Positions 48,421 through 60,531 of a stretch of DNA of 64,000 bases are shown piece after piece. Location of the stretch: NCBI GenBank assembly GCA_030603695.1, contig JAUVXF010000001.1:236638-300637 (forward strand), read 5' to 3'. Source of the DNA: Natronohydrobacter sp. (lineage in GTDB: Bacteria; Pseudomonadota; Alphaproteobacteria; Rhodobacterales; Rhodobacteraceae). The first letter of the stretch is position 1; each line of letters opens with the position of its first letter. The position numbers were made by a program, and so were the translations under genes. The notes beneath the pieces are model-generated. The model had not been told where the DNA came from. It saw nothing but the letters and a program-made list of their open reading frames with translations, and did not search any database.

Positions 48421-50085
48421 TCAGATAGGGGCCGTATCGCCCTGGTGTCCGGCATGGGCGCGCGGAGGCACCAGCCTGCGCGTGCGGGGCAGGGTGATAT
48501 CGGGATGTGCAAGCAATTCGGTTTGCGCAAGCATGCGGCGCGGTGTGGTTTCGTCCTTCTCGAATGACAGCATGGTGTTGCCCCCTGCCAGACGTGTGGC
48601 GCGCAGGCGAAGCCGTTCGCCAGAGTGCAGGCGCACTGTGCCTGTCAGATCCTGTTGCGGGGCGGTGCCTTCGCTGTCGCGCAGGCGCAGGGTGAAGAAT
48701 TCGGCCAGCCGCGCCCAAAAGGCTGTCGGCCCGCAAGCTTCTGCCCAGTGTTCCAGCGCGGCAGCAAGCCCGCGATCTGTCAGATCTGTGCAAGGGTCGG
48801 TTTGCCACATGCAGCGGTAGGGCGCATTGGCCAGCAATGTCTGGCCGTTCAGGCCGAATACAACCACTGCCTGTGACAGCTTGTCCAGCGCGTTATGCGC
48901 GGTTTCTATTTCGGCGCGGAAGCTGCGGGTGAGCGTGGTTTCGGTGGTGATATCCTGCATGAACAGGGCAAAAGCCCCGTCAGGCTGCGGCTGGCCTGTG
49001 ACATGAAAGGTCTTGCCGCAATCCAGCCCCCATTCTTCGCAATAGGCACCGTTTTGGGCTGCTTTTTCCATATCCAGAATTTCGCGCCGCCAAGAATTGA
49101 AATCTTTGGGTTCGGGCAGCATGCGCGCTTCGCGCAGCGCATAGAGCATTTGTTCGAAACTGGGGCGCGCGGCCAGAAATAGCGGCTCCAGCCCCGTCAT
49201 ATCCACCAGCGCAGGGTTGAAAACAACCAGCCTGCGTTCGGCATCGAACAGCGCCAGACCGATGGGCAGAGAGGCGAATGTCTTTGTCAGCCGTTGCAGG
49301 GTTTCGCGGCGGGCGGTTTCGGATTGCACCGCGGTATCTATGGGGGTGGCGAAATGGGTTACGCCCCCGTCAGAGGCTATGCTGCTAAGGGAAAACCAAT
49401 GCGTTTTGCCGTCATTCTCCAAGGCGCGCCGTGCGGTGCCAGAACTGGCCGGGGCTGGGCCGAACAGATCGGGAAGTGGCCAGGACAGGGGCATATCCGG
49501 GCTTTGGCGCCGTTGCAGGGCAGTGACATAGGCGGCATTGGCCCAGATAATGCGCCCAGCCTCATCTTGTTGCCAGACAAGGCTGGGTATGTCGCGCAGC
49601 ACATGGCGCAGGCGCAGCACTTCTTGTTGCAGGGCATCATAGCTTAGCCGATCCACTGCCAGAAGCGCCCCTTCTTCGGACAGATCGCACAGCCGCAGAT
49701 GCAGCAGCCCATTGCGATAACTGGCAGTCAATTCCAGTTGGGCAGAATTTTCGGCCAGAAGAGACAGTTCCTGTATCTGAGGCAGCGTTGCAAGGTGATG
49801 TTCGATCAGGGGAAAGCGTGGAATCAGGTAATCCATCAGCCGGGGGAAGGGCGGGGCATCGCGCCCCTGTTTGCCGGGCAGAGAGGACAGCAACGCAGCC
49901 CCCCTTTCAGAGCAGTCCACAAGCGTTTCGCCGCGAAAGATGAAGGCGGCCACCTGCGTATCGGCAAGGAGGGATTGGCTGTCCGCCCTGCGGTGCCGCA
50001 GCCCATGCAACATGGCCAAAATGGCCAGCAGCACTGTTGCGGCGGTGAAAACGGTGACAAATCCGAAAAGAACAGCCTGTGCCAT
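48421..50085 (-). CDS. PAS-domain containing signalling protein without recognisable kinase domain
   Basis: N-terminal TM; PAS-like segments (IPSLVWQQDEAGRIIWANAAYVTAL; LPIGLALFDAERRLVVFNPALVDMTGL); no H-box or N/G boxes seen. Confidence 0.75.
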   Translation of the reverse strand: MAQAVLFGFVTVFTAATVLLAILAMLHGLRHRRADSQSLLADTQVAAFIFRGETLVDCSERGAALLSSLPGKQGRDAPPFPRLMDYLIPRFPLIEHHLATLPQIQELSLLAENSAQLELTASYRNGLLHLRLCDLSEEGALLAVDRLSYDALQQEVLRLRHVLRDIPSLVWQQDEAGRIIWANAAYVTALQRRQSPDMPLSWPLPDLFGPAPASSGTARRALENDGKTHWFSLSSIASDGGVTHFATPIDTAVQSETARRETLQRLTKTFASLPIGLALFDAERRLVVFNPALVDMTGLEPLFLAARPSFEQMLYALREARMLPEPKDFNSWRREILDMEKAAQNGAYCEEWGLDCGKTFHVTGQPQPDGAFALFMQDITTETTLTRSFRAEIETAHNALDKLSQAVVVFGLNGQTLLANAPYRCMWQTDPCTDLTDRGLAAALEHWAEACGPTAFWARLAEFFTLRLRDSEGTAPQQDLTGTVRLHSGERLRLRATRLAGGNTMLSFEKDETTPRRMLAQTELLAHPDITLPRTRRLVPPRAHAGHQGDTAPI

Positions 50086-50202: not shown

Positions 50203-52299
50203 TTAGGACGGGGTGTTGAGGTCTTTCAACAACCGCCCGTGGCGGCGCACTTCGGCCAGCACATCGCCAAAGGTGACAAGCCCGCGGGATTTGAGCATTG
50301 GCATAAGCTTGAGAAACGCATCTGCCGTGGCCACAGTATCGCCAATTGCGGTATGGCGGGCCTCTTCGGGGATGGTAATGCCCAGACGCGCGGTCAGGGC
50401 ATCTAGCGAATGCTGTTCCAACTGCCCATACACCACCGCAGAGAGAAGCACTGTATCCAGCACCGGGTGATCGAAACTTGCGCCAATCGCGCTTTCATGG
50501 CGGCGCAGGAATTCCATGTCAAAGGGGGCGTTATGGGCCACCAGCACGGCCCCGCGCGCGAAATCGTGGAAGCGCTTGCCAGCCTCTGCCATGGTGGGGG
50601 CGCCTTTGACCATATCCTCGGTAATCCCATGCACCTCGGTAGAGCTTTGGGGGATCGGGCGCTTGGGATCAACCAGCGTATCAAACACCTCGCGCTGGAC
50701 GCGGCGGCCATTGACAAGGCGCACGGCGGCAATTTGCACAATCTCGTCGCTGGACGGGGTCAGGCCCGTGGTTTCGGTATCGAAAACCACATATGTCAGG
50801 TCTTCCAGCCGGCTTTCCAGCACTTCGGCGTTCCGCTCTTTCGAGAGCAACTCGAAATCATAGACGACTTCGCGCTCTATCGGGGCGGGGCGGCGGGTGG
50901 CGCGGCGGGCATTGGGGATGGGCAGGCGCACAGAAGCCCAACCATCGGGCCGCGCCTCTGTCCAGGCCTCTGTCGCATGGGCGTTCAGCACGGCGCGCGG
51001 GGTAAGATCGGGCAGATCGGCGCTGATTGGCTCTGTCAGCCAAATATCAAACGCGCCCACCGCCAGCGCCTCGCCCTGCCATAACATATCGAACACCGCG
51101 CCGGGGCCATCTTCCTCGGCCAATTCCAGACGAAAGCCAGAGGCATGGCCGGTTTTCGCCAGTTTCTCGCCCAGCCAGCGGAAGAATAGCGCCAGTTCAA
51201 ACCCGTCACATGTCAGCATCAGATCGGGGCCATGGGTGTCTATTTGCAGCCCTAGCGCGCTGAATTGCGCGCTTATGCCATCCAGCAGATCGCGGGCGCG
51301 GATCTGGCCAAGGGGCAGCCAATCGCCGCGCCCTTCATCATAGCGCTTGCCCAGATCGGTGATAGCGGCAGAGAGCACGCGCACTTCGGCCATCAGCGCG
51401 GCTGTCAGATCGGGGGCTTGGGCTGTTCCGGCATCTTCGGACAGCACACCAATCACAGTTTGCAGATTGGCGGCAGGGCGGCGCACGCGGTCGAACACCT
51501 CGGCCAGCAGGGCCTCGCGCGCGGCATGGGTGGCCAGATCGGCGGTCACATCGCGCAATGTCAGCACAAAGCCGGGGCGGCGGGTGTTGTCGGTGCGGCG
51601 CAAGACGCGCATACGCCCGGCCAGCAAGCGCCCGGTGCTGGTGGTGGCGCAGATCAGATCGGTGGCGGCCTCTGGGTCATTCAGTTTGCTCAGCCTGTCA
51701 TAGGCATGGGTGACAGGGCCTTCGCGCAGGTAATCCAGCAAGTTGCGATCAAGGCCCGGCGCGCCGCCTGCTTCCAGAATTGTCACAGCCTGCCCATTGT
51801 AAAACACAAGCTGATAATCGGCTGTGCATAGCAGCACAGCCACTGGCACATCGGCCAAAAGCTTTTCCAGCCGCGCCTTTTCGGCAGACAGGCGCGAGGT
51901 TTCGCGCGCCACGGATTCCGCCAGCGCAGAGCGCGTTTGCGCAAGCGAGCGCGTGATGGCCGCTGCGGCAGGTGCCAGATCGCCCAGATAGCGCGCGCGG
52001 TCTTTTTCGGCGCCAATATCCTCATTCACATCGGCCAGCGCGCGGGTGCGGATGGCATTGGCCAGCGCATCTATGGCGCGGGCGACATGGGTATCGAACA
52101 GATACCAGATGCCAGTTACAAGAAACACAATTAGAAAGCCTGCCAGAATTCCGGCTTGCAGCAAGGGGGCCATCAGATCAGGGGCCGCGTTGCGCGACAG
52201 CACAACCCAGCCGCCCACAGCCAATGCCGCCAGCGCGCCTGCGGCCAGCAGCGCGAAGAACAGCAAAACCCGAATGCGCAGGCTTAGACGGTCAAGCAT
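50203..52299 (-). CDS. Membrane PAS/degenerate histidine-kinase module fused to DEDDh 3'-5' exonuclease
   Basis: Two N-terminal TMs, PAS-like region, C-terminal YVVFDTETTGL / VAHNAPFDMEFL / RHTAIGDTVATADAF exonuclease motifs. Confidence 0.85.
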   Translation of the reverse strand: MLDRLSLRIRVLLFFALLAAGALAALAVGGWVVLSRNAAPDLMAPLLQAGILAGFLIVFLVTGIWYLFDTHVARAIDALANAIRTRALADVNEDIGAEKDRARYLGDLAPAAAAITRSLAQTRSALAESVARETSRLSAEKARLEKLLADVPVAVLLCTADYQLVFYNGQAVTILEAGGAPGLDRNLLDYLREGPVTHAYDRLSKLNDPEAATDLICATTSTGRLLAGRMRVLRRTDNTRRPGFVLTLRDVTADLATHAAREALLAEVFDRVRRPAANLQTVIGVLSEDAGTAQAPDLTAALMAEVRVLSAAITDLGKRYDEGRGDWLPLGQIRARDLLDGISAQFSALGLQIDTHGPDLMLTCDGFELALFFRWLGEKLAKTGHASGFRLELAEEDGPGAVFDMLWQGEALAVGAFDIWLTEPISADLPDLTPRAVLNAHATEAWTEARPDGWASVRLPIPNARRATRRPAPIEREVVYDFELLSKERNAEVLESRLEDLTYVVFDTETTGLTPSSDEIVQIAAVRLVNGRRVQREVFDTLVDPKRPIPQSSTEVHGITEDMVKGAPTMAEAGKRFHDFARGAVLVAHNAPFDMEFLRRHESAIGASFDHPVLDTVLLSAVVYGQLEQHSLDALTARLGITIPEEARHTAIGDTVATADAFLKLMPMLKSRGLVTFGDVLAEVRRHGRLLKDLNTPS

Positions 52300-52714
52300 T
52301 CGCACTGCCTGTCGCTGGCAATGCTGCGCGCGGAAGCGACAGGATTTCGCGCACCTGTTCGCGCAGTTCTTTCAGCTCGAACGGCTTGGAGATGAACCCA
52401 TCCGCCCCCATTGCCAGCCCTTTGCGCCGCTCCATCGCAGAGCCGCGCGCGGTCATCATCAAAATCCGCACATCGGCGCATTCAGGATCGGCGCGCACGC
52501 TTTGGCAGATTTCATAGCCCGATACTTCGGGCAGCATGACATCCAGCAACACCAGATCGGGCTTGCGGGTGCGGATCATCTCTACCGCGCCTGCACCGGT
52601 GGCAAGGCGGCTTTGGTTATAGCCTTCACGCGTCAGCAGGTAGTTAAGGGCAATGGCGATATTGTCCTCATCCTCGACGACGAGAATCTCAACCCTCTTG
52701 GCGTTCTCCTCCAT
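52292..52714 (-). CDS. Single-domain response regulator (REC)
   Basis: ILVVEDEDNIAIALNYLLTREGY...PDLVLLDVMLPEVSGYE...DGFISKPFELKEL; strong RBS AAGGAGG. Confidence 0.92.
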   Translation of the reverse strand: MEENAKRVEILVVEDEDNIAIALNYLLTREGYNQSRLATGAGAVEMIRTRKPDLVLLDVMLPEVSGYEICQSVRADPECADVRILMMTARGSAMERRKGLAMGADGFISKPFELKELREQVREILSLPRAALPATGSANA

Positions 52715-53237
52715 GTGCTCCTCCTTCACATGCAATTCTTAAAAACGGATCATTGGGGTCAAGCTGGTACCATTCCGCAGTCTGCGGAATGCCATCCTCA
52801 TCCAGCCTTGTGCCCTCTGTCAGATCCGCGCGCCGGGCGGTGGCGCAATCGAACATGGATTGAAAGCCCATCGTAATCGCCCAGCGTTCCTGCAAGATAA
52901 CCCCGGTCAGAATGAGATCGGGGTTGCGGCTATTGTGTTGGCGAATGCGGTTATCCACCGCGATAATCCGGTTTGTCAGGGGCACAGCGAATGTCCATGG
53001 CCGCATCCACGACACATGCGCATTCTTGCTGACAACGATTACATTCTCGGGCAAGCCGCCCTCAAAGCGCTCTGCCCAAGAATATTCCAGATAGACAACC
53101 ATAGATACCATGCCTGCGGCAACACCCACAGGCGTCAGCCATTCGGGCAGCATGCGCCTGCTGAGGCGCCGCAGGATCAGGGCCGTGCCGCCACCGCCAA
53201 ATCCCGCCACGATAACTGCCAGAAATTCCATCAACAT
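52689..53237 (-). CDS. Conserved hypothetical membrane-anchored protein of the acetate locus
   Basis: 182 aa; N-terminal TM segments; overlaps the REC gene start. Confidence 0.65.
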   Translation of the reverse strand: MLMEFLAVIVAGFGGGGTALILRRLSRRMLPEWLTPVGVAAGMVSMVVYLEYSWAERFEGGLPENVIVVSKNAHVSWMRPWTFAVPLTNRIIAVDNRIRQHNSRNPDLILTGVILQERWAITMGFQSMFDCATARRADLTEGTRLDEDGIPQTAEWYQLDPNDPFLRIACEGGAHGGERQEG

Positions 53238-53253
53238 CGAGACTCATATCCCT

Positions 53254-55080
53254 TTATGAAAGTGTGCCAGTCAGTTGCCCGACAGCGGATTGCATGGTGC
53301 GCACAACCACAAAGGCATCGCGCAGGTGGCTGCGTTCGAAATCTGACAAATCCGAGGGGGCAAGATAATTGTCGGGCTTGCGCCCCATCCGCACCAGATT
53401 GGCCTGATTTTCCAGCCGCAAATTGGCGATCAGGTCATAAGCCTCTATCAGATCGCGCGCGCCCGATACCGAAATCACGCCCTGCTCTTCCGCTGCCAGC
53501 AACCGCGCGCGGGTATTGGCCGCCGTGATCCGCCCCCGCAGTGCATAGACGCGCGCCAGATCGGTAACAGGCACAACGCCCGACAGCTTCATATCCACAT
53601 GGTTCTTATGCTCGCCCGACCGGATGGTGGCAAAGCTGCGCAGCAGGCCCAAAGGCGGCGTATGCTTGACAGAGTTGGAGATCATATGCGCCACGAAGAT
53701 CGAGTTTTTCGCGGCTGCGGCCAGAGTTTCTTCTTGCAGGCTGCGAAACAGTGCAACTTGGCCGCCGATGGGGCGCAGATCGAACATGACAGAGGCCAGC
53801 ATCTGCGCTTCGGGCGAGGGCGAGGTGATCCAGCCCTGAAAATACCGCCGCCACACTTTTGCAGGCTGGCACCAGCGCGGATTGGTGGCCATCATATCGC
53901 CGGGGCAGTAGAAATACCCTGCCGCATCCAACCCGTCAGACACAAACCGCGCCAGATCGGTATAATAAGGCATGTCATCGGGGGTGACGGCATCATCTAT
54001 GATGATGCAGTTATCCTGATCGGATACGCCGGTTTGTTCCTGGCGCCCTTGCGAACCGCAAGCGGCCCACAGATAGGGCACAGGCGGGGGGCCAAGCTTT
54101 TCTTCGGCCAGTTTCAACAACCGCCGGGTGACAGTATCGGCAATATCCGTAATCAGGCGCGTGACAACTTCATGTGCGTTATGCGCGCCCACCAGTTGCA
54201 CCAGCAGTTGCGGAATGCGCTCTGTAACATGGGCCAGCGCCTCGTACGTATCGGCCACGGCGGCATCGCGCACCAGTTGGGCCGAACTGATGGCCTGAAA
54301 GCGCGTCAGATCGGTTTGGGTGATCATGCCCAACAGCTTGCCATCGCGCACCACGGGCAAATGCCCGATGCGGTTTTCCAGCATCATGTGCAAAATGTCC
54401 GACCCCAGCGATTGCGGGCTAAGTGACAGGGGATCGGGCGTCATGATCTCTGCCACGGGGGTATCGGGGGCGCGGCCTTCGGCCAGCACCCGCCCCGACA
54501 GATCGCGCGTTGTGACAATGCCCACCAGCCGCTCGCCCTCTACCACTGGCACGCAGGAAAACCGATGCTCGCGCATCAGTTTTGCGGCCTCTTGTGCCGT
54601 GGTCTGGGGGGTAACGCTTTGGGGCTTGCGCGCCATCAGATCGGCCACTTTCAGCGTGGCCAGATCGTTTTGCCGCGCGGCCCTGCCGCTTTGGCCCCGG
54701 CTGAAAAACCGCTCGAATGCCGGGAAATTGGCTATCAGATGGCGCAATTCTTCACCCGGCAAGCACAGGATCACGGAATCGGATGTGGTTGTGGCTGTTG
54801 TCACCGCCAGCCCATCGCGCAACAAACCACGCTCGCCAAAGGAATTTCGCGGGCTAAGCATGGAGACCAGCGCGCCATGCGCGTCTGTCACCTCTATCGT
54901 GCCGGATTTGACCAGATAGACCCCGGTAATCGGATCGCCCACGGTATAAATTGCCGTGCCTGCGGGCACTTCGCTGCGGCTAAAGGAACGGGCGACACGC
55001 ACCAGCTCGTCAGGCGGCAGGGAATCATAGGGATGCACGTTTTGCAGGAATTCCAGAACTTTGGGCGAAATGTCAGTCAT
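53254..55080 (-). CDS. Cyclic-nucleotide-binding / CBS / DUF294 putative nucleotidyltransferase
   Basis: cNMP-like GTAIYTVGDPITGVYLVKSGTIEVTD; two CBS repeats; ACGSQGRQEQTGVSDQDNCII (NTase-like). Confidence 0.9.
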   Translation of the reverse strand: MTDISPKVLEFLQNVHPYDSLPPDELVRVARSFSRSEVPAGTAIYTVGDPITGVYLVKSGTIEVTDAHGALVSMLSPRNSFGERGLLRDGLAVTTATTTSDSVILCLPGEELRHLIANFPAFERFFSRGQSGRAARQNDLATLKVADLMARKPQSVTPQTTAQEAAKLMREHRFSCVPVVEGERLVGIVTTRDLSGRVLAEGRAPDTPVAEIMTPDPLSLSPQSLGSDILHMMLENRIGHLPVVRDGKLLGMITQTDLTRFQAISSAQLVRDAAVADTYEALAHVTERIPQLLVQLVGAHNAHEVVTRLITDIADTVTRRLLKLAEEKLGPPPVPYLWAACGSQGRQEQTGVSDQDNCIIIDDAVTPDDMPYYTDLARFVSDGLDAAGYFYCPGDMMATNPRWCQPAKVWRRYFQGWITSPSPEAQMLASVMFDLRPIGGQVALFRSLQEETLAAAAKNSIFVAHMISNSVKHTPPLGLLRSFATIRSGEHKNHVDMKLSGVVPVTDLARVYALRGRITAANTRARLLAAEEQGVISVSGARDLIEAYDLIANLRLENQANLVRMGRKPDNYLAPSDLSDFERSHLRDAFVVVRTMQSAVGQLTGTLS

Positions 55081-55165: not shown

Positions 55166-56932
55166 TCAGTGATCCACGGCCGCGCCTGCGCCTTTCGGCA
55201 CGCGGATGGATTCCACCAGTTCCTGAATCTCGGCCGGGGCTTCTTTGGTCATCGACAGCGTGATGTAAGCTGCAATGAAGTTCAGAACCGCACCCACAGA
55301 CCCGAAGGACAGCGGCGAGATACCAAACAGCCAGTTATCCGGCGTGTTGGGCAGCATGTTGGTGCCGGGGACGAAGAACCAGCCCAGATAGGTGAAGATG
55401 TAAAGGACGGTCGAAAGCAGACCAACCAGCATCCCCACAATCGCACCGGTAGAGTTCATCTTCTTGGAGAAGATGCCCATCATGATGGCCGGGAACAGCG
55501 AGGCTGCCGCCAGTCCAAAGGCCAGTGCCACCACCTGCGCGGCAAAGCCCGGAGGGTTGAGGCCCAGCCATGTTGCCAGCGCAATGGCAAAGGCCATGGA
55601 AATACGCGCCGCCAACAATTCCGATTTCTCGGAAATATTTGGCGCGATCATCTTCTTGAGCAAGTCATGCGAAACCGCCGAAGAGATGGCCAGCAGCAGA
55701 CCCGCCGCTGTGGAGAGCGCCGCAGCCAGACCACCTGCCGCGATCAGGCCGATAACCCAACCCGGAAGCTGTGCGATTTCGGGGTTGGCAAGAACGAGAA
55801 TGTCGTTGTTGAACAACACCATCTCATTGCCTGCCCAGCCTTCTTCGGCAGCGCGTGCGGGGGGACGTGCTTCGTTGTAATACTGGATCAGGCCATCGCC
55901 GTTCTTGTCTTCAAAGCGCAGCAGACCTGTGCGTTCCCAGTTCAGCATCCAGTCGGGCTTGGCATCGAATGCCAGAGGCTCGCCTTCAATGCCCTGTGGC
56001 CAGAGTGTGGTAATGATATTCAGACGCGCCATTGCACCAACAGCCGGGGCAACAGTGTAAAGCAGCGCGATGAACACCAGCGCCCAACCAGCCGAGGTGC
56101 GGGCATCTGCCACGCGCGGCACAGTGAAGAAGCGGATGATGACGTGGGGCAGACCGGCAGTACCCACCATCAGCGACATGGTGAACAGAACCATGTTGAA
56201 GGTTGAACCGTGGTTGCCTGTATAGTCATTGAAGCCCAGATCCATCAGCACCTGGTTCAGCGTGGTCAGCAGCGGCTGGCCAGTTTCAGTATGTGTGCTC
56301 CACAGGCCAAGCGGCGGCAGCGGGTTGCCTGTCAGCTGCAACGAGATGAAGACCGCCGGAATGGTGTAGGCGATGATCAGCACGACATATTGCGCCAGCT
56401 GCGTATAGGTAATGCCCTTCATGCCGCCAAGAACGGCATAGCAGAACACCACGCCCGATGCGATGAACAGGCCTGTTGTGCTATCCACTTCCAGAAAGCG
56501 CGAGAAGGCCACGGCAGCGCCTGTCATCTGCCCGATCACATAGGTGATCGAAATGATGAGCAGCGAAATCACGGCCACCAGACGCGCGGTCTGGCTATAG
56601 AAACGGTCGCCAATGAAATCTGGCACGGTGAAACGGCCAAATTTACGCAGATAAGGCGCCAGAAGCATGGCCAGCAGCACATAGCCGCCTGTCCAGCCCA
56701 TGAGGAAGGTAGAGTTGCCATAACCCACAGCCGCAATAAGGCCGGCCATAGAGATGAACGAGGCGGCCGACATCCAGTCAGCCGCAGTGGCCGCACCGTT
56801 GACAACCGGGTTAACGCCACGCGACGCCGCGTAGAAATCCGAGGTTGAGCCGGCGCGCGCCCAGATCGCAATCCCGATATAGAGCGCGAAAGAGCCACCG
56901 ACGAAGATGAGGTTCAAAATATACTGATCCAT
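55166..56932 (-). CDS. Sodium:solute symporter, VC_2705/ActP-like family
   Basis: MDQYILNLIFVGGSFALYIGIAIWARAGSTSDFYAASRGVNPVVNGAATAADWMSAASFISMAG. Confidence 0.93.
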   Translation of the reverse strand: MDQYILNLIFVGGSFALYIGIAIWARAGSTSDFYAASRGVNPVVNGAATAADWMSAASFISMAGLIAAVGYGNSTFLMGWTGGYVLLAMLLAPYLRKFGRFTVPDFIGDRFYSQTARLVAVISLLIISITYVIGQMTGAAVAFSRFLEVDSTTGLFIASGVVFCYAVLGGMKGITYTQLAQYVVLIIAYTIPAVFISLQLTGNPLPPLGLWSTHTETGQPLLTTLNQVLMDLGFNDYTGNHGSTFNMVLFTMSLMVGTAGLPHVIIRFFTVPRVADARTSAGWALVFIALLYTVAPAVGAMARLNIITTLWPQGIEGEPLAFDAKPDWMLNWERTGLLRFEDKNGDGLIQYYNEARPPARAAEEGWAGNEMVLFNNDILVLANPEIAQLPGWVIGLIAAGGLAAALSTAAGLLLAISSAVSHDLLKKMIAPNISEKSELLAARISMAFAIALATWLGLNPPGFAAQVVALAFGLAAASLFPAIMMGIFSKKMNSTGAIVGMLVGLLSTVLYIFTYLGWFFVPGTNMLPNTPDNWLFGISPLSFGSVGAVLNFIAAYITLSMTKEAPAEIQELVESIRVPKGAGAAVDH

Positions 56933-56945
56933 TAGTATGTCCCCC

Positions 56946-57200
56946 TCACTCTTCCACGCCAAACTCTTGGTCGAGTTTGTTCATGTATGAGCGATAGTAA
57001 AAGATCAGCACGATGAAGGTCAGGATCGAGCCTTGCTGCGCGAACCAGAACCCAAGATCAGTGCCCCCAATCGGAATACCCGCCAGAAGCGGGCGTAGAA
57101 CGATGCCGAACCCGAAGGACACCAGCGCCCAGATCACCATGCAAATGGTGATCACGCGCACATTGGCCTTCCAGTAGGCGTCTGTCGACTTGTCTGACAT
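56946..57200 (-). CDS. DUF4212 small subunit partner of the symporter
   Basis: MSDKSTDAYWKANVRVITICMVIWALVSFGFGIVLRPLLAGIPIGGTDLGFWFAQQGSI. Confidence 0.9.
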   Translation of the reverse strand: MSDKSTDAYWKANVRVITICMVIWALVSFGFGIVLRPLLAGIPIGGTDLGFWFAQQGSILTFIVLIFYYRSYMNKLDQEFGVEE

Positions 57201-57353
57201 GTGACGTCTCCCAGTTTCCTCCTGTGCCACCCCGGTGCGGGGCAGCTTCCTCTCCTTGCACTCTCGCAATGGCTGCGAGAGTGTTTGCAGGCGCGCCGCT
57301 CCTCGATACGCCTGAAACTTGACGCTTTGCAGCGCCACCGGTTGCCCGGATTT

Positions 57354-58039: not shown

Positions 58040-59986
58040 TCAGGCCCGGTTCATGCGGTTTTCGATCAGATCATCGACAACCGAGGGGTCGGCCAATGTG
58101 GATGTATCCCCAAGGCTGCCATAGTCATTCTCGGCAATCTTGCGCAAGATGCGACGCATGATCTTGCCTGACCGTGTTTTCGGCAGGCCCGGTGCCCATT
58201 GGATAAGATCGGGGCTGGCAATCGGGCCAATTTCCGAGCGCACCCATTTCACCAGATCCTTGCGCAGATCATCGCTTGGCGCGACCCCGTTCATCAGGGT
58301 GACATAGGCATAAATGCCCTGGCCCTTGATATCATGCGGGTAGCCCACCACGGCGGCCTCTGCCACGGCCTCATGCGCGACAAGGGCGGATTCCACCTCT
58401 GCCGTGCCCATGCGGTGGCCAGAGACGTTGATCACATCATCCACGCGGCCCGTGATCCAGTAATAGCCATCCTCATCACGGCGGCAGCCATCGCCCGTGA
58501 AGTAATAGCCCTTATACTGGCTGAAATACGCTTCCTCAAAGCGGGCATGATCGCCCCAGAGGGTGCGCATCTGCCCCGGCCAGCTGTCTTTGATGCACAA
58601 CACGCCTTCGGCTTTGGTGGCGGTCTGCACTTCGGCAGTGGCAGGATCCAGCACTTCGGGGCGCACGCCAAAGAAGGGCTTGGTGGCCGAACCGGGCTTG
58701 TTGGGGATCGCGCCGGGCAGAGAGGTGATCATATGCCCGCCGGTTTCTGTCTGCCAGAATGTATCTACAATCGGGCAGCGGCCTTTGCCAACATGGGTGT
58801 TATACCAGTTCCACGCTTCAGGGTTGATCGGTTCGCCCACGGAACCCAGCAATTTCAGGCTGGAAAGATCATGCTTTTCCACCCATTCCGTGCCCTGACC
58901 CATGAGCGCGCGAATGGCGGTCGGGGCGGTGTAGAACTGGTTGACCTTGTGCTTGGCGCAGACTTCCCAGAAGCGGCCCGCATCAGGGTAGGTGGGCACG
59001 CCTTCAAACATCACAGTTGTCGCGCCATTGGCCAGCGGGCCATAAATGATGTAGCTGTGCCCTGTCACCCAACCCACATCGGCGGTGCACCAGAACACAT
59101 CGCCATCATGGTAATCGAACGTGTATTGCTGCGTCATGGACGCATAAACCAGATAGCCGCCCGATGTATGCACTACGCCCTTGGGCTTGCCGGTGGAACC
59201 AGAGGTGTACAGAATGAATAGCGGGTCTTCCGCGCCCACTTCGGTATAGGCGCAATAGGGCTTGGCGGCGGCCATTTCGGCCTTCACATCCACATCGCGG
59301 CCATCAACCCATGTGGTCTGATCGCCCGTATGTTTGACAACAAGGCATTTCACGCTGTCGCTGCAATGCTGCAACGCCTTGTCGGTGCTGGCTTTCAGCG
59401 CCGTGCGGCGGCCACCGCGCGGGGCGCTGTCGGCGGTGATAACGGCTTTCGCGCCGCTGCCATTGATCCTGTCTGCCAGCGCATCGGCCGAAAAGCCCGC
59501 GAAAACGATGGAATGAATCGCCCCGATCCGCGCGCAGGCCAGCATGGCATAGGCGGCCTCTGGGATCATGGGCAGATAGATGATAACGCGGTCGCCCTTT
59601 TCTATGCCCTGTGCCTTCAGCACATTGGCCATGCGGCAGGTCTGTTCCAGCAATTGCTTGTAGGTGATGTGCTGGGCGGGGGTTGTGGGTTCATCGGGTT
59701 CCCAGATGATCGCGGTCTGATCACCGCGTGAGACGATGTGACGGTCTATGCAATTGGCCGAAACATTCAGCGTGCCATCTTCAAACCATTTGATGCTGAC
59801 TTCACCCGGTTGAAATGTAGTGTTCTTCACCTTTGTGAACGGCTTGATCCAGTCAATGCGCTGGCCGTGCTCTGCCCAGAATGCTGCCGGGTTTTCCAGC
59901 GAAGCGGCATACATTGCCTCATACTTGGCGGCATCGACATGCGCATTCGCAATAAAGGCGGCTGAAGCCGGATAGATCTCGGACAT
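58040..59986 (-). CDS. acsA: Acetate--CoA ligase
   Basis: [77 protein letters not shown]. Confidence 0.96.
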
Positions 59987-60531
59987 GAATGCTCCTCCAG
60001 TAGCGGAAGTGGATATGCGCAGTGCATCCCCCTTCCTCTTGATTTTGGGCGCCATACAGATCTGGCGCCCCACTTCCCCGCAACCCTTATAGCGCAATCG
60101 TCAAGAAAAGTGTAACATTTTTTAATTCAAGGATTTTCTTGTAAATATCTTGACTATTTGGTGGTAAAGGCTGCAAAGTTCTTTGCGCTGCGGTGCAGAG
60201 GCCCTGATATTTAAGCAAGTTTTCGTGAACTGTTTTTGACCGGGGCGCTGTTGCCTGCCCGCGCGGCAGATTGCCCCGCAAAAGCTGAGAGCGCAAACAG
60301 TCGCGAAATATTCGAAAAGGCAATGGCCTGTTGCGCGACACAAACTGATTCGCGCCGCAATGGCTGCGGGGCGGGGTTCGCCCATGGCGCGCATATTTCC
60401 AGCCAGGTTCACGGCACCCATCCTGGCCAGATCGGGCGGGCATCGCGCGGCCTGCAAACGCAACTGGCCGCGCGAAACCGCGCGGCCAGAACCCAAGGCG
60501 CAGGGCGTTCCCGCGCCCGATTTTTCAGGGC

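Follow-up and report, generated by a model that had tools for sequence, protein, structure and literature searches.

The window analysed here is a 64,000-nucleotide stretch of DNA from Natronohydrobacter sp., whose minus strand carries genes in the transcription order acs, adk (recognized by reading the sequence), DUF4212, SSF symporter, CBS/DUF294, 182-aa protein, response regulator (RR) and exonuclease fusion (Table 1). The original prediction had mentioned an association of such exonucleases with acs, DUF294 and symporter loci, and this association was found in the window and in its relatives. The fusion gene ends with its stop at 50203 and gives a product of 700 aa when read from the GTG at 52305; a forward-strand reading of the same coordinates is broken by stops. 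The stop codon of the RR gene overlaps the ATG of the fusion gene (ATGCTTGA). The 182-aa protein, located between DUF294 and the RR/exonuclease pair, has no Pfam match above the cut-off and diverges fast (30-80% identity). Directly downstream of the exonuclease gene lies a 554-aa PAS protein without a kinase domain (48421-50085, minus strand), which was dropped as a component of the system, as it stands beside the gene only in close relatives.

Table 1. Genes of the cluster and predicted domains of the fusion protein, in window coordinates
Feature	Coordinates	Strand	Remarks
Acetyl-CoA synthetase gene (acs), upstream neighbour of the cluster	58040..60097	minus	
Symporter small subunit (DUF4212, TIGR03647)	56946..57338	minus	
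Sodium/solute symporter large subunit (VC_2705 family, TIGR03648)	55166..56962	minus	
cNMP-binding/CBS/DUF294 putative nucleotidyltransferase	53254..55080	minus	
182-aa protein, conserved in the Rhodobacteraceae operon	52689..53237	minus	
Single-domain RR, receiver only	52292..52735	minus	Response_reg E=5.2e-27
Pseudo-histidine-kinase/DEDDh exonuclease gene	50203..52305	minus	GTG at 52305; ATG at 52299 is the likelier start
Two TM helices, residues about 9-74	52084..52281	minus	AlphaFold2 helices 9-38 and 42-91; hydrophobic sequence
PAS domain, residues about 144-255	51541..51876	minus	Weak PAS_4/PAS_8 matches in most members; modelled PAS fold
Pseudo-DHp hairpin, residues 256-330	51316..51540	minus	D272 at the phospho-His position, codon 51490-51492
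Pseudo-CA (ATPase-like) domain, residues 331-475	50881..51315	minus	N-box, G1 Asp and ATP lid lost
DEDDh exonuclease domain, residues 504-675	50281..50796	minus	D509, E511, D596, H651, D656

The C-terminal part of the fusion protein matches RNase_T over residues 506-664 (Pfam, E=3.7e-38). The catalytic DEDDh signature, described as retained in the original prediction, is kept well beyond the window, with its five residues present in 120-121 of 121 diverse homologs. Judged by these residues, the exonuclease is apparently intact and would act in the 3'-5' direction. It is also the best-conserved part of the protein and is present in every form, including those without the pseudo-kinase. Besides kinases, Foldseek against the PDB returned DEDDh exonucleases of the PolC and epsilon types (PDB 2p1j, 9qpc, 1j53), which have the same exonuclease fold and catalytic residues. 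However, the exonuclease here is fused to a membrane pseudo-kinase instead of a polymerase, and it is not a replicative proofreader.

Structure prediction, proposed earlier as a check, was run by AlphaFold2 with 48 sequences, and the overall scores of the model (mean pLDDT 79, pTM 0.37) leave the relative placement of its domains uncertain. The model contains two TM helices, as had been predicted for the N-terminus, and a PAS fold, followed by a DHp-like two-helix hairpin (254-290 and 298-329) and a CA-like alpha/beta domain (about 330-468; pLDDT near 90), from which a linker of low confidence leads to the exonuclease. For the region first described as HAMP/PAS-like, the PAS part stands on a weak PAS_4 match (0.006 in Pfam) together with the modelled fold. 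No significant match to HAMP was found in the fusion protein, and HAMP was dropped from the layout.

The original prediction named an intact HisKA/HATPase as a result that would count against it; in Pfam, neither HisKA nor HATPase_c is matched at E<=1 by the window protein or by 47 orthologs. Using sequence alone, a profile of region 260-469 built from 11 diverse relatives matched DivL best among PDB entries (9.6e-10), followed by ZraS (7e-9) and ThkA (3.7e-7). The kinase matches of Foldseek against the PDB include a WalK model (7.4e-16), VicK (1.8e-12) and a ThkA-RR complex (8.8e-11), and sub-threshold HisKA matches lie at the expected place in 6 of 10 remote relatives. The PDB profile match, the AlphaFold2 model and Foldseek agree on a homologous DHp-CA fold, and a chance likeness of the middle region to histidine kinases was ruled out by the Foldseek and PDB profile matches.

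The residue at the phospho-His position is Asp, as first noticed; among 81 close homologs this site is D in 77 and E in the other 4, while 58 diverse full-length homologs contain E (29), D (20), A (2), T (2) and G, S, M, Q or P (1 each), and no His. By these counts an acidic residue is favoured at the phosphosite, not essential. We also aligned 41 pseudo-kinase sequences to nine real cores of SLC5-type histidine kinases (SLC5-HKs), and the phospho-His column holds E in 24, D in 8 and H in none. In this alignment both N-box Asn are gone and the G1 Asp is replaced by Trp in 36 of 41 pseudo-kinases, which bears out the description of an ATPase-like region without clear N and G boxes. The pseudo-CA domain has neither ATP lid nor F-box, some G2 glycines remain in part of the family, and the H-box region is conserved though His-free. 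Given the PDB profile matches and the missing kinase motifs, the middle region is therefore a histidine-kinase descendant whose chemistry is lost; an intact or cryptic histidine kinase was ruled out by the lack of any HisKA/HATPase_c match and by the lost catalytic motifs. The predicted fusion of a pseudo-histidine-kinase to a DEDDh exonuclease is thus upheld, by RNase_T on one side and by DivL and Foldseek on the other. The Trp that replaces the G1-box Asp, W409 in the window protein (51079-51081), is near-invariant (62 of 67), which may reflect a conserved role of the pseudo-CA domain, either structural or involving a ligand.

The RR accompanies 80 of 80 close orthologs, and the phospho-Asp and Lys are kept in 193 of 193 homologous receivers. 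The RR and exonuclease genes overlap in 30 of 54 loci, and they overlap or lie <=20 nt apart in 45 of 54. By residues and gene spacing, the RR is intact and translationally coupled to the exonuclease gene.

To summarize the relationship between RR and hairpin, we used 121 loci, namely the window gene and 120 neighbourhoods fetched after genome searches. Two architectures occur in the same operon, a long one of ~700 aa with the pseudo-kinase and a short TM-PAS-exonuclease of ~470-500 aa. An RR is found directly upstream in 55 of 121 loci, and all of these (55 of 55) have a full pseudo-DHp hairpin (64-69 of 69 columns). Among the 66 loci without an upstream RR, 54 contain neither hairpin nor CA domain, 3 have a full hairpin, and in 9 intermediates the RR is gone and the hairpin is cut to 5-48 columns with the CA domain kept. 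These intermediates come from several lineages (L162-L164 with L235 and L241; L169; L170; L238 and L239). In real kinases the DHp hairpin is the part on which RRs dock, and the intermediates point to the hairpin, rather than the CA domain, as the RR-linked part. The losses of RR and hairpin are not one deletion, because the intervening TM and PAS coding sequence is retained. There are exceptions as well: L173 combines a full hairpin with an RR about 5 kb off on the other strand, accompanied by a histidine kinase; in L167 and L225 the hairpin is full but the fetched region contains no RR; and in L179 and L180 the hairpin is missing though RR and SLC5-HK are close by.

On a tree built on the shared parts of the protein, which counts changes without telling gain from loss, the RR has 9 changes and the hairpin 7. 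Six independent pairs could be drawn on well-supported branches, 4-5 of them concordant and 0 opposite (p 0.06-0.125, underpowered), so the co-change is suggestive at this sample size. Searching a second class for further independent losses brought few additional events, and the covariation signal between RR and hairpin (MI-APC, 154 pairs, Neff 68) is dominated by sequence ends and phylogeny. One sister group has the exonuclease next to DUF294 but neither pseudo-kinase nor RR, an arrangement which may be the older state.

Outside Rhodobacteraceae, the next downstream gene often encodes a CrbS-like SLC5 histidine kinase of ~900-950 aa. In these neighbours both HisKA (E 3e-19 to 1e-22) and HATPase_c (E 5e-26 to 5e-33) are intact; the N-terminal SSF symporter is matched by Pfam in 3 of 8 tested (E 7e-10 to 1e-3), and all eight align along their length. 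The pseudo-kinase matches the adjacent SLC5-HK core end to end. The window genome encodes its SLC5-HK counterpart at another site (42% identity across query residues 25-922), where an ScfR-type short-chain acyl-CoA regulator, a receiver-only RR and the SLC5-HK stand in a row (contig C12, L269:5898-10797). This second RR (L269:7279-7752) has Response_reg as its sole match, like the window RR. The RR/SLC5-HK pair was found in 20 of 20 Rhodobacteraceae loci examined, whether the exonuclease is long or short. As the SLC5-HK is placed elsewhere with an RR of its own, it is a candidate kinase for the window RR.

With the coupled RR, which had no place in the original prediction, and the SLC5-HK adjacent in other orders, sequence comparison suggests that the pseudo-kinase receives the signal of a two-component system. 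Pseudo-histidine-kinases are few and have mostly been studied through DivL. In Caulobacter, the non-His kinase region of DivL reads DivK~P, and alphaproteobacteria without DivK are frequently without the DHp-CA of DivL (PMC4211667). The fusion protein resembles DivL/DivK in its non-His DHp, homologous core, receiver-only partner, PAS domain and membrane anchor, and in that the DHp-CA is often lost without the RR. A His-free DHp under selection and a receiver-only partner beside the full hairpin (55 of 55), both DivL-type features, are found here. However, the phosphosite is Asp/Glu instead of the Tyr of DivL, one PAS is present instead of several, the operon is an acetate/symporter one, RR binding is inferred, and the output is an exonuclease while that of DivL is control of the kinase CckA. 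A DivL ortholog was ruled out by the single PAS and the exonuclease C-terminus. DivL is a direct precedent for an RR~P docking step, and by analogy docking may occur here too. We give slightly better than even chances to the reading that the protein is a membrane-anchored DEDDh exonuclease in which the former histidine-kinase core now serves as an RR receptor.

The protein might instead be a stand-alone one-component sensor, in which the TM/PAS part senses and the pseudo-kinase core relays a conformational change while the RR acts elsewhere. TM and PAS are kept in the short forms without pseudo-kinase and RR, so neither is needed for a membrane-bound, PAS-regulated exonuclease. We nevertheless consider such a sensor unlikely, since it does not explain why a directly upstream RR always comes with a complete hairpin (55 of 55), why nine members have the hairpin cut, the CA domain kept and the RR gone, or why the RR and exonuclease genes overlap. 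Of the membrane sensor with an exonuclease output that was first proposed, the fusion and the link to a metabolic locus stand; the stand-alone part is the less likely reading, in view of the coupled RR and of the SLC5-HK adjacent elsewhere.

The co-occurrence of RR and hairpin would also be expected if the pseudo-kinase were a sink, scaffold or dominant-negative inhibitor for the RR or the SLC5-HK, with the exonuclease as a separate fused function, and its end-to-end alignment with the adjacent SLC5-HK core makes hetero-association conceivable. Yet the exonuclease is the best-conserved domain and occurs in every form, thus the fused output seems to matter, and we hold this explanation to be somewhat less likely again than the sensor. 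We find it improbable that the RR-hairpin association arose neutrally, from neighbouring deletions or from shared ancestry: the RR and exonuclease genes are adjacent and many short forms are one clade, but the retained TM and PAS sequence separates the RR gene from the hairpin, so that one deletion would not remove both, and RR and hairpin are associated repeatedly, on several branches and also in another class (L238, L239).

For the repurposed receptor, the domain order, the dead kinase, the kept exonuclease residues, the intact receiver, the gene coupling and the receiver-hairpin association are read from the sequence, and from them we infer a chain of events together with its direction of regulation and substrate. 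An SLC5/STAC-type histidine kinase would sense a short-chain carboxylate and phosphorylate the receiver-only protein encoded directly upstream of the exonuclease. The exonuclease protein is presumably a dimer, and RR~P would then dock on its dead DHp hairpin, which neither takes nor gives phosphate because the His is absent. Docking would be relayed via the CA-like domain and linker, and the C-terminal exonuclease would be switched on or off at the membrane, where it may trim RNA or short oligonucleotides tied to acetate/pyruvate assimilation and possibly antagonise the DUF294 nucleotidyltransferase of the same operon. That a two-component system has the exonuclease as its output in this way, running from SLC5 kinase to receiver, dead kinase core and gated enzyme, with carbon control via RNA/oligonucleotide turnover, seems to us an even chance.

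Related genes in Pseudomonas lend support to the physiological setting. In Pseudomonas putida, the RNase_T exonuclease PP_0353 shares an operon with the CBS protein PP_0354, ErdR binds the PP_0354 promoter, and a PP_0353 mutant shows a delay on pyruvate that is absent on 20 mM acetate (PMC9927547). Moreover, PA3232-PA3235 are up about 16-fold on propionate (PMC9765439). As in the window, these loci link an RNase_T exonuclease to a CBS/DUF294-type protein and acetate-type symporter genes, under control of an SLC5-type kinase system, which is transcriptional there. PP_0353 differs in being regulated via the DNA-binding RR ErdR, and no pseudo-kinase or TM part is reported for it. Compared with the SLC5/STAC systems CrbS/CrbR (MxtR/ErdR) and RpuS/RpuR (PMC5715377, PMC9100948), the short-chain acid context is shared, and an SLC5-HK adjoins RR and exonuclease in many relatives. 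However, the RRs here are single receivers without the LuxR-type DNA-binding part of CrbR, and the kinases stop after HATPase_c, whereas CrbS has a C-terminal receiver.

The fusion family was found in Alphaproteobacteria and other Pseudomonadota, in acetate/pyruvate loci. A search of the open-access literature found no published description of a pseudokinase-exonuclease fusion or of the RR-hairpin association; the parts are of known kinds and the combination is new. Single-domain RRs are often without a known target. If the proposed mechanism is true, two-component signalling gains an exonuclease among its outputs, a second example of an RR receptor derived from a kinase core is provided, and a carbon-source signal acts directly on an exonuclease, not on transcription. 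A function would also be suggested for the exonuclease/DUF294 genes that Pseudomonas induces on short-chain acids.

Exonuclease fusions of other kinds were also observed. For example, L188 (6530-8638, minus) and L190 (7062-9314, plus) encode a DEDDh exonuclease, CBS and a DUF294/DUF294_C nucleotidyltransferase in a single polypeptide, which supports a joint function of the neighbouring window genes. In L183 (6274-7776, plus; also in L184, L096 and L097) an EamA-family transporter is fused to a DEDDh exonuclease and adjoins a divergent DUF294 gene, representing a further membrane-tethered exonuclease in a like context.
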